From Armatimonadetes bacterium JP3_11 (lineage in GTDB: Bacteria > Armatimonadota > Fimbriimonadia > Fimbriimonadales > GBS-DC), in the NCBI GenBank assembly GCA_002254605.1, contig NKPV01000006.1:1-40274 (forward strand): a DNA stretch of 40,274 bases, given 5' to 3'. Of this stretch, positions 1-28,962 are shown one piece after another. Each line of letters opens with the position of its first letter. The stretch's first letter is position 1. The position numbers and the translations under genes were made by a program. The notes beneath the pieces are model-generated. The model was not told where the DNA came from and did not search any database. It saw nothing but the letters and a program-made list of their open reading frames with translations.

Positions 1-1310
1 TCAAGGTCGTGTGCTGTGAACATGGCGTACATCATCGCGCACTTCTCAACGCCGATTCCATGCTCGCCCGTGAGGCTGCCTCCCTCGCGCAGGCAGAGTG
101 CGAGGATTTCGTCGCCTGCTTCCACCACGCGCGCGACTTGGTCGGGGTCGGAATCGTCGAAGAGCAATACAGGGTGCAGGTTGCCATCGCCAGCGTGGAA
201 CACATTTGCGAGTTTGAGTTGGTATTTCGCGGCGATGTGTGCGGCTTCGCGCAGCACTTGGGGCAGTTTCGAGCGGGGGATAACACCGTCTTGGGTGACG
301 CATGAGGGTGCGAGTCGTCCGAGTGCGCCAATCGCCTTTTTCCGTGCTGCCCACAGCTGCGCGCGTTCCTGCGGTGTGGCGGCACGACGCACCTCGCGGG
401 CGCGATGGCGCTGGCAGATTTCCATCACGTTCGACTGTTCACCCTCCAACTCCGCCTCTAAGCCGTCGAGTTCGATGAGCAGCACCGCTTCCGCATCCAG
501 CGGGAAGCCATAGCCGAATGCGGCTTCCACCGCCTGCAGCGTGAGCGCGTCCATCAGTTCCAGCGCAGCAGGCACAATTCCGCCCGCGATAATGTCGGAC
601 ACGGTCTGGCTGGCGTCTTCCAGCGTCTCGAACACCGCCAGCAGGGTTCGCACGGCTTGTGGGTTGGGTGTCAGGCGCGCCACGACTTCCGTCACTATCG
701 CCAGCGTGCCCTCACTGCCGGTGAGTAGCCCTATCAGGTCGTAGCCGAGCGGTTCATCCTCCACGCCGCCCAGTTCCACCACCTCGCCGTCAGGTAGGAC
801 GATTTGTAAGCCGGTGATATGATTCACCGTGACGCCGTATTTGAGGGTATGGGGCCCGCCCGAGTTTTCCGCCACATTCCCGCCAATCGTACATGCCCCC
901 TGCGAGGATGGGTCGGGTGCGAAGTGAAGGTTCTCGCGTTGTACCGCTTTACTGAGTTGATAGTTCACCGCCCCTGCCTGTGCGCGCAGGCGTCGGTTGC
1001 GGGCATCCACCCACAGGATACGGTTCATACGACTGGATGCTATCACAATCCCGCCGTGAACTGCCAGTGCGCCGCCCGATAGCCCTGTACCCGCGCCGCG
1101 CGGCGTTATCGGTAGCCCCTCGCGATTTGCCAATTTCACAATCGCGGCGACCTGGTTGGTGCTTTGGGGCAACACGACCACCGTCGGCAACGATTTTTCA
1201 ATCGTGTAGGCGTCGCAGTCGTATGCCAGCAATTGCACGGGGTCGGTAATCACCCCATCCGCGCCCACAATCTGTTCCAGTTCTCTGCGCAACGCTTCCG
1301 AGAGGTTCAT
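1..1310 (-). CDS. glcD: FAD-linked oxidase, glycolate oxidase subunit GlcD (C-terminus cut by window edge)
   Basis: Own translation of the minus strand from ATG at 1310: MNLSEALRRELEQIVGADGVITDP...TPRGAGTGLSGGA...GACTIGGNVAENSGGPHTLKYG...GLLTGSEGTLAIVTE...NVFHAGDGNLHP...GGSLTGEHGIGVEK. Absent from the ORF track because it runs off the edge. Confidence 0.93.
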   Translation of the reverse strand, partial: MNLSEALRRELEQIVGADGVITDPVQLLAYDCDAYTIEKSLPTVVVLPQSTNQVAAIVKLANREGLPITPRGAGTGLSGGALAVHGGIVIASSRMNRILWVDARNRRLRAQAGAVNYQLSKAVQRENLHFAPDPSSQGACTIGGNVAENSGGPHTLKYGVTVNHITGLQIVLPDGEVVELGGVEDEPLGYDLIGLLTGSEGTLAIVTEVVARLTPNPQAVRTLLAVFETLEDASQTVSDIIAGGIVPAALELMDALTLQAVEAAFGYGFPLDAEAVLLIELDGLEAELEGEQSNVMEICQRHRAREVRRAATPQERAQLWAARKKAIGALGRLAPSCVTQDGVIPRSKLPQVLREAAHIAAKYQLKLANVFHAGDGNLHPVLLFDDSDPDQVARVVEAGDEILALCLREGGSLTGEHGIGVEKCAMMYAMFTAHDL

Positions 1311-26338: not shown

Positions 26339-26412
26339 GGGATTCCTCGCTGCGCTCGGAAAGACAGCGTTTGAGAGCTGTTGCTGTTTTTGCAAGTGTA
26401 GCGAGGAATCCC
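26339..26412. repeat. 13-bp perfect inverted repeat in the ctaA-mqnE intergenic region
   Basis: GGGATTCCTCGCT (26339-26351) / AGCGAGGAATCCC (26400-26412). Confidence 0.8.
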
Positions 26413-26439
26413 AAGGACGCAGTTACGGAGGCTATCTCT

Positions 26440-27594
26440 ATGCGCGTTCTTGAAGTGATTCTGGGGCGAGAGTTGATGCCCCTTTATGAAAAAGTCGTTC
26501 AGGGCGAACGGCTCTCGTTCGAGGATGGCGTGCTGCTGTACAAAACGCCGAACCTGTCGGGTGTAGGCTACCTGGCGAACATGGTGCGTGAGCGACTCAA
26601 CGGCGACTATGCCTATTACATCCGCAATCAGCATATCAACTACACCAACATCTGCAACAAGGGTTGTAAGTTCTGCTCGTTCTATGCGCAGAAGGGCGGT
26701 CCGAAGCCCTACACGCTCACGATGGACGAGGTGCGCGAGCGATTGCGAGCCTACAAACACATTCCCATCACCGAGGTGCATATCGTTGGAGGGGTGAACC
26801 CACGCCTGCCCTATCAGTATTACTTAGACCTCATCCGCACGGTCAAGGAAGAGCGTCCTGATGTACATATCAAGGCGTTCACGGCGGTTGAGTGGGAAGA
26901 GATTGCTCGCGTCGCCAAGAAGCCGCTGGCGGAAGTGCTGCACGAGATGAAAGCGGCGGGGCTGGGCAGCGTGCCTGGCGGTGGGATTGAGGTGCTCAGC
27001 GACCGCATCCACGCAGAGTTGTTTCCCAAGAAGATCAACGGGAAGCGTTGGAAGGAGATTGCCCGCGAAATCGCGGTCGCGGGGCTGAAACAGTACGCCA
27101 CCTTGCTCTATGGCATGGGCGAGACGGTCGAGGAGCGCGTTGACCATTTCATCCAGTTGCGCGAGTTGCAAGACGAGACGGGGCACTTCTTAGCAATGAC
27201 GCCGCTCTCGTTCCATCCCGAAGGTACACAACTGGCGCACCTGCCGCACCCCAGCGGCGACGACGACCTGCGCAATATCGCCGTGGCGCGTCTGATGCTC
27301 GACAACTTTCCCCATATCAAATCGTTTTGGATTATGAACACTCCCGCCATCACGCAGATCGCTCTTTGGTACGGCGCAGACGATGTGGATGGCACTGTAC
27401 ACGAGTACGAGATTGTCTATCAAGACGATGCTCCAGGCGTGCGCCAGCAGGTACTCACCCGTACGGAGCTGATTCGCCTCATTCGCGACGCGGGGCGTGT
27501 GCCTGTCGAGCGCGATAGCCTGTATCAAATCGTGCATCGCCCTGACGACGAAGAGTCGCCCCCTTCACCGAAAAAGTTGCTACGGGTATTATAG
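26440..27594 (+). CDS. mqnE: aminofutalosine synthase MqnE (radical SAM)
   Basis: Start MRVLEVILGRELM with ACGGAGG upstream; INYTNICNKGCKFCSFYAQKG, ITEVHIVGGVNPRLPYQYYLDLI, GLGSVPGGGIEVLSDRIH. Confidence 0.93.
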   Translation: MRVLEVILGRELMPLYEKVVQGERLSFEDGVLLYKTPNLSGVGYLANMVRERLNGDYAYYIRNQHINYTNICNKGCKFCSFYAQKGGPKPYTLTMDEVRERLRAYKHIPITEVHIVGGVNPRLPYQYYLDLIRTVKEERPDVHIKAFTAVEWEEIARVAKKPLAEVLHEMKAAGLGSVPGGGIEVLSDRIHAELFPKKINGKRWKEIAREIAVAGLKQYATLLYGMGETVEERVDHFIQLRELQDETGHFLAMTPLSFHPEGTQLAHLPHPSGDDDLRNIAVARLMLDNFPHIKSFWIMNTPAITQIALWYGADDVDGTVHEYEIVYQDDAPGVRQQVLTRTELIRLIRDAGRVPVERDSLYQIVHRPDDEESPPSPKKLLRVL

Positions 27595-27600
27595 AGGGGG

Positions 27601-28467
27601 ATGAGAACCCCTTGGTTCCTCTGGAGCCTCGCGTACTTTGCGCTGCAGTTAGGCACGCCGCTAATTACGCTGCCGAAAGGGTGGCTGTTGATTGGGGGCG
27701 TGCTGCTGACCACGCTGCTCTTGATGGCGACCCTTCTGGGTTTAGTGTTCGCATGGGCGCATGAAACCGAGAAGGCGCCATGGCTTGCGCCAATAATGTT
27801 GGTGGGGGGCGTGGGGGCATGGTGGCTGTGGGGGCTGGCGCCGTTTGTCTTGGGCTGGAGCCGTGAGAACCCGCCTGGAGAGATTTCATTTGGGGTCTAT
27901 CGCGTGGTGCATGGGTACCTGCTCATGCTCGCTGCGGTCGGGTTGGGCGCTACCCTGTCCAAGCTCATTCGGGAGAAGAATCTGCTGGCGCCTGTGATTC
28001 CCTTTGCGGCGATGGTGGACATGCTGACCGTGCTGTCGCCCGGCGGATTTGTCAAGCAAATAATGGAGAAGGCTCCTGAAATCGCCGAGCATGCTTCGGT
28101 GGCGGTGATGGCAGCCCCCAATGCTCCCGAAGCGGTCGCGCGGCTGACCCCAATTGCGATTATTGGCGCGGGCGATTTCATCTTTCTTGCGCTGTACGCG
28201 GCGTGCCTGATACGGTTCGGTTTGCGTGTGCGCGCTACGATGATAGGGCTGTTTGTAGCGCTGTGGGTTTATTTGGGGCTGGTGCTATGGGTGCTGCCTG
28301 CGTTGGGCGTGGCACCGCGTCTGCCTGCGCTGGTACCGATGGCAATCGTGACGCTGGCAATCAACTGGCGCACATTTCAGCTTAGCCGACAGGAAACCGT
28401 CGCAAGCGTGGTCGTGACGACATTGGCGTTGGGCGTCATCGCTTGGCTCTTCACGCGGGGCAATTAA
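27601..28467 (+). CDS. presenilin/SPP-like (family A22-type) GxGD intramembrane aspartyl protease candidate
   Basis: About nine hydrophobic segments; VDMLTVLSPGGFVKQIMEKA (D140), IIGAGDFIFLALY (D192), RLPALVPMAIV (PAL 242-244), in presenilin order. Confidence 0.7.
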   Translation: MRTPWFLWSLAYFALQLGTPLITLPKGWLLIGGVLLTTLLLMATLLGLVFAWAHETEKAPWLAPIMLVGGVGAWWLWGLAPFVLGWSRENPPGEISFGVYRVVHGYLLMLAAVGLGATLSKLIREKNLLAPVIPFAAMVDMLTVLSPGGFVKQIMEKAPEIAEHASVAVMAAPNAPEAVARLTPIAIIGAGDFIFLALYAACLIRFGLRVRATMIGLFVALWVYLGLVLWVLPALGVAPRLPALVPMAIVTLAINWRTFQLSRQETVASVVVTTLALGVIAWLFTRGN

Positions 28468-28494
28468 CGAAATCCCGTATTTCCCGCAGTGTCG

Positions 28495-28608
28495 CCTGAG
28501 TTCCATAGGTGGAACAACCCCTTCAGCGGGGAGAAGACGGCGCCAATCGCCGCCCGAAAGGCGAAGTTTTCTCCCCAGCATTCCGAAAATTCGGATATGG
28601 AGGGACAG
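28495..28608 (+). promoter_or_regulatory. structured 5' leader of the pilin gene with mutually exclusive helices
   Basis: GTTCCA-TAGG-TGGAAC; CCCC/GGGG; GGGGAGAAGAC (28528-28538) / GTTTTCTCCCC (28566-28576) enclosing two hairpins. Confidence 0.5.
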
Positions 28609-28962
28609 ATGATGATGCGCAATTGGATGAACCGACGCCGTGAGCGGGGCTTCACGCTCGTAGAAATCATGATTGTGGTGCTGATTATCGGCATCCTGTT
28701 GGCAATTGCGGTACCGAGCTTTATGAATGCGCGTGAGCGTTCTCGCGCGAATGCATGCCGTTCGAACCTGCGCCAGATTCAAGCCGCCAAAGAGCAGTGG
28801 GCGATGGCGACCAATCAGGGACCGACTGCAAGCCCTGCTCAAAGTGACCTTTCGCCTGATTTTATTCAGAACTGGCCCAGCTGTCCATCGGGAGGCACTT
28901 ATACGATCGGCAACATGAGCACCAATCCGACTTGCAGCATCGGCGGGCAACACAGTCTGTAA
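28609..28962 (+). CDS. prepilin-type N-terminal cleavage/methylation domain protein (type IV pilin / pseudopilin)
   Basis: RRRERGFTLVEIMIVVLIIGILLAIAVPSFMNARERSRANACRSNLRQIQAAKEQWAM; GGAGGG SD. Confidence 0.93.
   Translation: MMMRNWMNRRRERGFTLVEIMIVVLIIGILLAIAVPSFMNARERSRANACRSNLRQIQAAKEQWAMATNQGPTASPAQSDLSPDFIQNWPSCPSGGTYTIGNMSTNPTCSIGGQHSL

Follow-up and report, generated by a model that had tools for sequence, protein, structure and literature searches.

The gene at positions 27601-28467 (+) of the window, by which we mean the whole 40,274-nucleotide stretch of DNA analysed here, encodes a 288-aa product that we read as a bacterial intramembrane aspartyl protease of the presenilin/SPP superfamily. 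The protein belongs to a family of its own, found in nearly all of Armatimonadota, and we put the probability of this reading at roughly 0.8. Enzymes of the A22 type have been described from eukaryotes and archaea (PMC2947513, PMC4343526). No paper linking presenilin with the names of this phylum was found in the open literature searched, and the Armatimonadota group falls under no Pfam or NCBIfam family. Re-translation reproduced exactly, codon for codon, the three motifs of the initial annotation (D140, GAGD192 and PAL242-244), and family-averaged hydropathy its nine hydrophobic segments. The features of the locus are as follows.

26371-27594, + strand: mqnE-like gene, 6 bp upstream (open reading frames, context)
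27601-28467, + strand: candidate presenilin/SPP-like intramembrane aspartyl protease gene, 288 aa, nine predicted TM helices (conservation, profile, model, Foldseek)
27976-28044, + strand: TM5, residues 126-148, with the first catalytic Asp D140 (codon 28018-28020) in the motif PhiDxxxV (alignment, hydropathy, AF2 model)
28048-28095, + strand: predicted interfacial amphipathic helices, residues 150-157 and 159-164, in a position equivalent to presenilin TM6a and SPP AMPH1 (AF2 model 2; PMC13252537)
28096-28167, + strand: two predicted strands (about 166-171 and 183-189) around a low-confidence loop ahead of GxGD, compare the SPP membrane-plane strands (AF2 models; PMC13252537)
28165-28176, + strand: GxGD motif, here GAGD (189-192), with the second catalytic Asp D192, codon 28174-28176 (171-sequence alignment)
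28213-28218, + strand: R205-F206 at D192+13/+14, spaced like the RF(D) of SPP/SPPL2a, at the cytosolic end of the second catalytic helix (alignment)
28324-28332, + strand: PAL motif P242-A243-L244 at the start of TM8 (alignment; Pro in 166/171)
28393-28395, + strand: invariant Glu E265 at the start of the extra C-terminal helix TM9, residues 263-286 (171/171; AF2 model)
28489-28962, + strand: type IV pilin-like gene (RGFTLVEI...), a genus-level neighbour and not part of the system (open reading frames, context)

Conservation across the phylum and the active site

A single-sequence search with the window protein found homologues in 106 of the 113 genomes of the class, nearly always in single copy. 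A profile of 64 homologues (A1), whose matches reach down to about 21-25% identity, extended this to the phylum Armatimonadota, where the family was detected in 268 of the 291 genomes and in 152 of the 156 genera. These counts refer to genomes within Armatimonadota; the scan of the genome collection reached close relatives alone, and the nearest public contigs, 80-95% identical over the protein, belong nearly all to Fimbriimonadales. The gene is absent from the near-complete genomes G068 and G069 (reduced, 1.5 Mb) and from one genus (G205-G207), possibly through independent losses. One locus (L170, G133:C1:5630854-5632575) carries a tandem duplicate of the presenilin-like gene.

We aligned 171 homologues from the phylum, whose mean pairwise identity is about 26%. 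D140, G189, D192 and E265 are invariant (171/171), G116 is kept in 169 sequences and V144 of DxxxV in 157. The PAL proline is kept in 166 and L244 in 161, and PAL itself stands in the majority, so the two aspartates and PAL proved to be conserved in homologues. In five homologues (L114, L128, L132, L137 and L218) AAL or GAL replaces PAL, and a dus-like gene lies upstream in four of them. The distance between the aspartates, described in the initial annotation as compact, is 52 residues in the window protein and 43-61 across the family; in human SPP the catalytic pair, Asp219 and Asp265, is 46 apart (PMC13252537). The tyrosine that precedes the first aspartate in the YD motif is not conserved, being found in 6 of the 171 sequences. 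Residue 191 is always either Gly (86) or Ala (85), and on a quick tree the GxGD and GxAD labels require at least five changes; the corresponding Gly-to-Ala change considerably slows archaeal PSH (PMC2947513). Some relatives (L204, of 384-412 aa, L208, L212 and L219), all from one family of the phylum (f10), carry a C-terminal PDZ extension, recognised by Pfam PDZ_2/PDZ_6 matches, some above cut-off, and predicted to lie on the outside; such an architecture is the one seen in envelope proteases. In L034, L045 and L172 the domain is preceded by long open frames; these were considered as further fusions and rejected, family support being found for the PDZ fusions only. As for E265, it lies just after TM8. 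We know of no A22 function for such a Glu; SPP, too, has a Glu about as far past PAL.

Geometry of the active site was addressed by mean-field DCA of the 171 sequences (effective number 151). The antiparallel coupling register between TM5 and TM6 peaks exactly at i+j = 332, which equals 140+192, with a value of 0.103 compared to at most 0.065 in eight column shuffles. Couplings were also seen between G191 and A243 and P246, between T143 and G191 and A248, and between V144 and P242. In this coevolution analysis D140 is placed opposite D192 and beside PAL, as expected of an A22 active site, and the apposition of the two aspartates near PAL is borne out by both the register and the PAL couplings. 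TM5 and TM6, the catalytic pair, are adjacent in the AF2 model and by coevolution.

An improbable alternative is that the protein has the A22 fold but is an inactive or repurposed relative (a scaffold, an ion leak or a factor in lipid handling) in which the Asp pair is kept for another reason. It would agree with the occurrence of GxAD in about half of the family and with the changed N-terminal bundle and extra helix, and protease activity itself is a prediction. However, pseudo-enzymes usually lose their catalytic residues in some lineages, while here both aspartates are retained phylum-wide at such low mean identity, PAL persists and covaries with the active-site motif, and the PDZ fusions resemble those of envelope proteases. 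Computation establishes the family, the fold and the geometry of the active site; proteolysis itself, like orientation and substrates, is inferred.

Gene neighbourhood

Both genes that the initial annotation placed around the protease gene are present: just upstream the one that it named mqnE, and downstream the type IV pilin-like gene. The mqnE-like gene is probably co-transcribed with the protease gene, in this genus only. The private promoter that had been suggested comes down to a stretch within the end of mqnE that agrees with the consensus at 9 of 12 positions, which we do not regard as evidence. Comparison of contexts showed that the adjacency of mqnE and the pilin gene is kept within the genus only, with a possible weak exception (a pilin near L019). 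Elsewhere in the class the upstream neighbour is usually a GT4 glycosyltransferase. Over much of the remaining phylum the gene is followed by leuS and preceded by a divergent ANTAR response regulator or an uncharacterised small gene. A small CxxC...C protein with no Pfam match is encoded ahead of the gene in about 20 loci from outside the class, for example in L153 (-368..22 from the target frame) and L179 (-666..-3).

The initial annotation had linked the protease to the pilin or to secretion, and a dedicated role in processing the adjacent pilin or some secretion substrate, with the downstream pilin gene as partner, would fit the same-strand neighbours seen in the window and in most congeners. 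This link did not hold up, and we consider it highly improbable: the neighbours are conserved at genus level, with other genes in their place elsewhere, and the window genome has a separate prepilin peptidase gene (PF01478) at another site, PF01478 being found in 18 of the 21 genomes searched. Since no neighbourhood is universal, the contexts fit a housekeeping enzyme.

Profile and fold comparisons with presenilin and SPP

The window protein alone gave no significant match in single-sequence searches of Pfam, NCBIfam, PDB or plasmids. This failure is uninformative, because archaeal PSH and the human PSEN1 core do not find each other by phmmer either. We also compared profiles. In hhalign the phylum profile scored 34.1 against the PSEN1 core, 31.0 against the SPP core and 22.5 against archaeal PSH, with reversed sequences reaching at most 14.4 and unrelated membrane ORFs, from which one tandem paralogue was left out, at most 17.2. 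The score with PSEN1 exceeds that of PSEN1 with archaeal PSH (21.9), the former being a profile-to-sequence and the latter a sequence-to-sequence comparison. Against a joint alignment of five A22 sequences the score was 48.5 (prob 93%), the best of 100 block shuffles giving 24.7 and the reversed control 9.5. Together with the invariance of D140, G189 and D192, this supports the view of the initial annotation that the motif agreement goes beyond a chance GxGD. Among the reference sequences, PDB chains served to verify PSEN1 over TM6-TM9 as well as PSH, and the match to SPPL2a was the sole check on the SPP stretch; the N-terminal half of PSEN1, which lies beyond the verified part, entered a single comparison (hhalign with controls).

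A second profile (A3, 127 homologues) was searched against 177,635 PDB sequences with hmmsearch, and its sole match at E<=10 was presenilin-1 (E 0.023), with GxGD and PAL aligned. When the 127 homologues were compared with 24,736 Pfam models, the families matched by most members were Presenilin (8) and Peptidase_A22B (3). The eight PF01080 matches were obtained at E<=1, the best being 0.051, far below cut-off. Among the three PF04258 matches, which do not include the window protein, one (L174) exceeds the gathering score (25.4 vs 23.3 bits) and is aligned over the catalytic core. PF06550 was found in none of the 291 phylum genomes at E<=0.01, Haloferax and Methanosarcina controls being positive; genome searches with PF01080 missed the window gene, and a human SPP query gave no match in IMG/VR. 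A profile match to A22 is thus found at the level of the family (hhalign, PDB and Pfam), and the window protein taken alone has none.

Structure prediction led in the same direction. The AlphaFold model built from 64 sequences had a pLDDT of 86.5; with 127 sequences (AF2) the pLDDT was 89.7 and the pTM 0.88, five models scoring alike. In a blind Foldseek search of the whole PDB the first 12 hits were all gamma-secretase PSEN1 or SPPL2a (prob 0.44-1.00, ten of them >=0.94), and the first unrelated hit stood at 0.09. The best hits had TM-scores of only 0.30-0.41 (0.30-0.38 for these 12), a large rmsd and E of about 0.003, none with E <0.001. Such low TM-scores indicate that the helix arrangement outside the core differs, and in the models the match to PSEN1/SPPL2a probably covers the core and not the whole helix bundle. 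With model 1, archaeal PSH was also retrieved (weakly, 4y6k), and giant-virus SPP was found among viral models.

These searches bear on two further explanations. The motifs might be fortuitous in an unrelated polytopic membrane protein such as a transporter, as one could argue from the missing Pfam hit of the window protein and the modest TM-scores. We find this scarcely credible, as the blind searches (profile, fold and Pfam) converge on presenilin/SPP, the shuffled, reversed and unrelated-ORF controls fail, and couplings are present in the active site. The type 4 prepilin/preflagellin peptidases (A24, PF01478), likewise bacterial aspartyl proteases of the GxGD type and suggested also by the pilin neighbour, can practically be dismissed, since neither the window protein nor its homologues match PF01478, the fold check returned presenilin and SPPL2a and none of A24, a genuine A24 gene lies elsewhere in the genome, and the A24 aspartates sit in soluble segments several TMs apart and cleave outside the membrane (PMC2947513).

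The reading as a presenilin/SPP-type protease was compared with each known group. With SPP/SPPL (MEROPS A22B, PF04258) the family shares PhiDxxxV, GxGD and PAL, the RF at +13/+14 past the second Asp, an amphipathic helix with strands between the catalytic pair, a predicted placement of the inter-Asp loop outside, the L174 match and the SPPL2a fold hits. It differs from SPP in having the aspartates on TM5/TM6 instead of TM6/TM7, an N-terminus predicted inside instead of outside, an extra C-terminal TM9 with an invariant Glu, the unconserved YD tyrosine, common GxAD and its bacterial origin. Presenilin (A22A, PF01080), the catalytic subunit of gamma-secretase, is the best PDB match in both fold and sequence and shares D-x-x-x-V-L-x-P-x-G...E-x-A in the TM6 region, GDFIF and PAL. 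In contrast to presenilin, the family lacks the long cytosolic TM6-TM7 loop with its endoproteolysis region, as reflected in the Asp-Asp spacing, has another helix count ahead of the catalytic pair and is predicted to orient its active site oppositely. Archaeal PSH (MCMJR1; PF06550) resembles the family in being a prokaryotic single-chain A22-type protein of similar length with both catalytic motifs. However, its profile similarity is weaker than that of PSEN1 or SPP, it keeps YD, GxGD and the TM6/TM7 layout, and its gene context differs (SRP19/Gar1 beside the Natrinema homologue). That archaeal PSH is located on a Natrinema megaplasmid (L220 2941-4029), annotated as hypothetical, directly after the SRP19 and Gar1 genes.

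Of the proposal that the protein is a bacterial member of the A22 family, superfamily membership stands. Membership of a known family does not, given the different helix layout and YD tyrosine. As the TM6/TM7 placement and YD both failed and PF06550 was unmatched, we file the group as a separate bacterial family and not as presenilin, SPP or PSH.

Helix layout, orientation and candidate role

Family-averaged hydropathy and the AF2 model give nine helices: TM5 and TM6 bear the catalytic pair, TM8 begins with PAL, and an additional TM9 follows. In known presenilin, SPP and PSH, the catalytic pair (TM6/TM7) is preceded by five helices and PAL is on the last helix. In the family alignment, a conserved cluster of K/R residues is found in the loops TM4-5, TM6-7 and TM8-9; these positions suggest that the N-terminus and R205 lie inside and the inter-Asp loop outside. 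The charge distribution thus predicts an SPP-like orientation of the active site, opposite to presenilin. The helix at 150-164 and the strands at 166-171 and 183-189 are reminiscent of AMPH1 and the membrane-plane strands in human SPP (PMC13252537), and in SPP this orientation goes with type II substrates (PMC7768045, PMC13252537).

On this basis a mechanism may be proposed. D140 on TM5 and D192 on TM6, two adjacent antiparallel helices, would activate water inside the bilayer, and the PAL loop before TM8, together with the strands between the catalytic helices, would hold the unwound substrate. With the inter-aspartate loop outside and R205 inside, as in SPP, type II (N-in) segments are expected as substrates, and the enzyme might cut, e.g., leftover signal peptides and small membrane proteins. 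We tentatively favour a housekeeping role in clearing away what is left of signal peptides, as well as other N-in helices. SppA (S49) was found in only 3 of the 113 class genomes, the window genome being without it, against 106 for the protease family, and it could perhaps have been replaced by this family in Fimbriimonadia. However, SppA occurs in 70 of 151 phylum genomes sampled and coexists with the protease family in many genomes outside the class, and RseP/M50 is nearly universal in the phylum genomes sampled. As the two are not complementary outside the class, it is the orientation that speaks for a signal-peptide role.

A broader picture, which we consider rather doubtful as a whole, would be that of an ancient bacterial presenilin/SPP branch, near-universal and mostly single-copy, whose helices were rearranged (one fewer before and one more after the core), which serves as a general signal-peptide/type II peptidase and takes the place of SppA in Fimbriimonadia, and of which half works with a natural GxAD site that slows known enzymes.

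Presenilin and SPP are important for Alzheimer's disease and for the quality control of proteins. With a bacterial family that spans the phylum and shares their active site, the history of the superfamily gains a new root, and structure and inhibitor work gain hundreds of small single-chain candidate enzymes. The family also contains a natural G/A experiment at residue 191 (codon 28171-28173), the equivalent of presenilin-1 G384, and it offers a test of why such enzymes exist in both membrane orientations.
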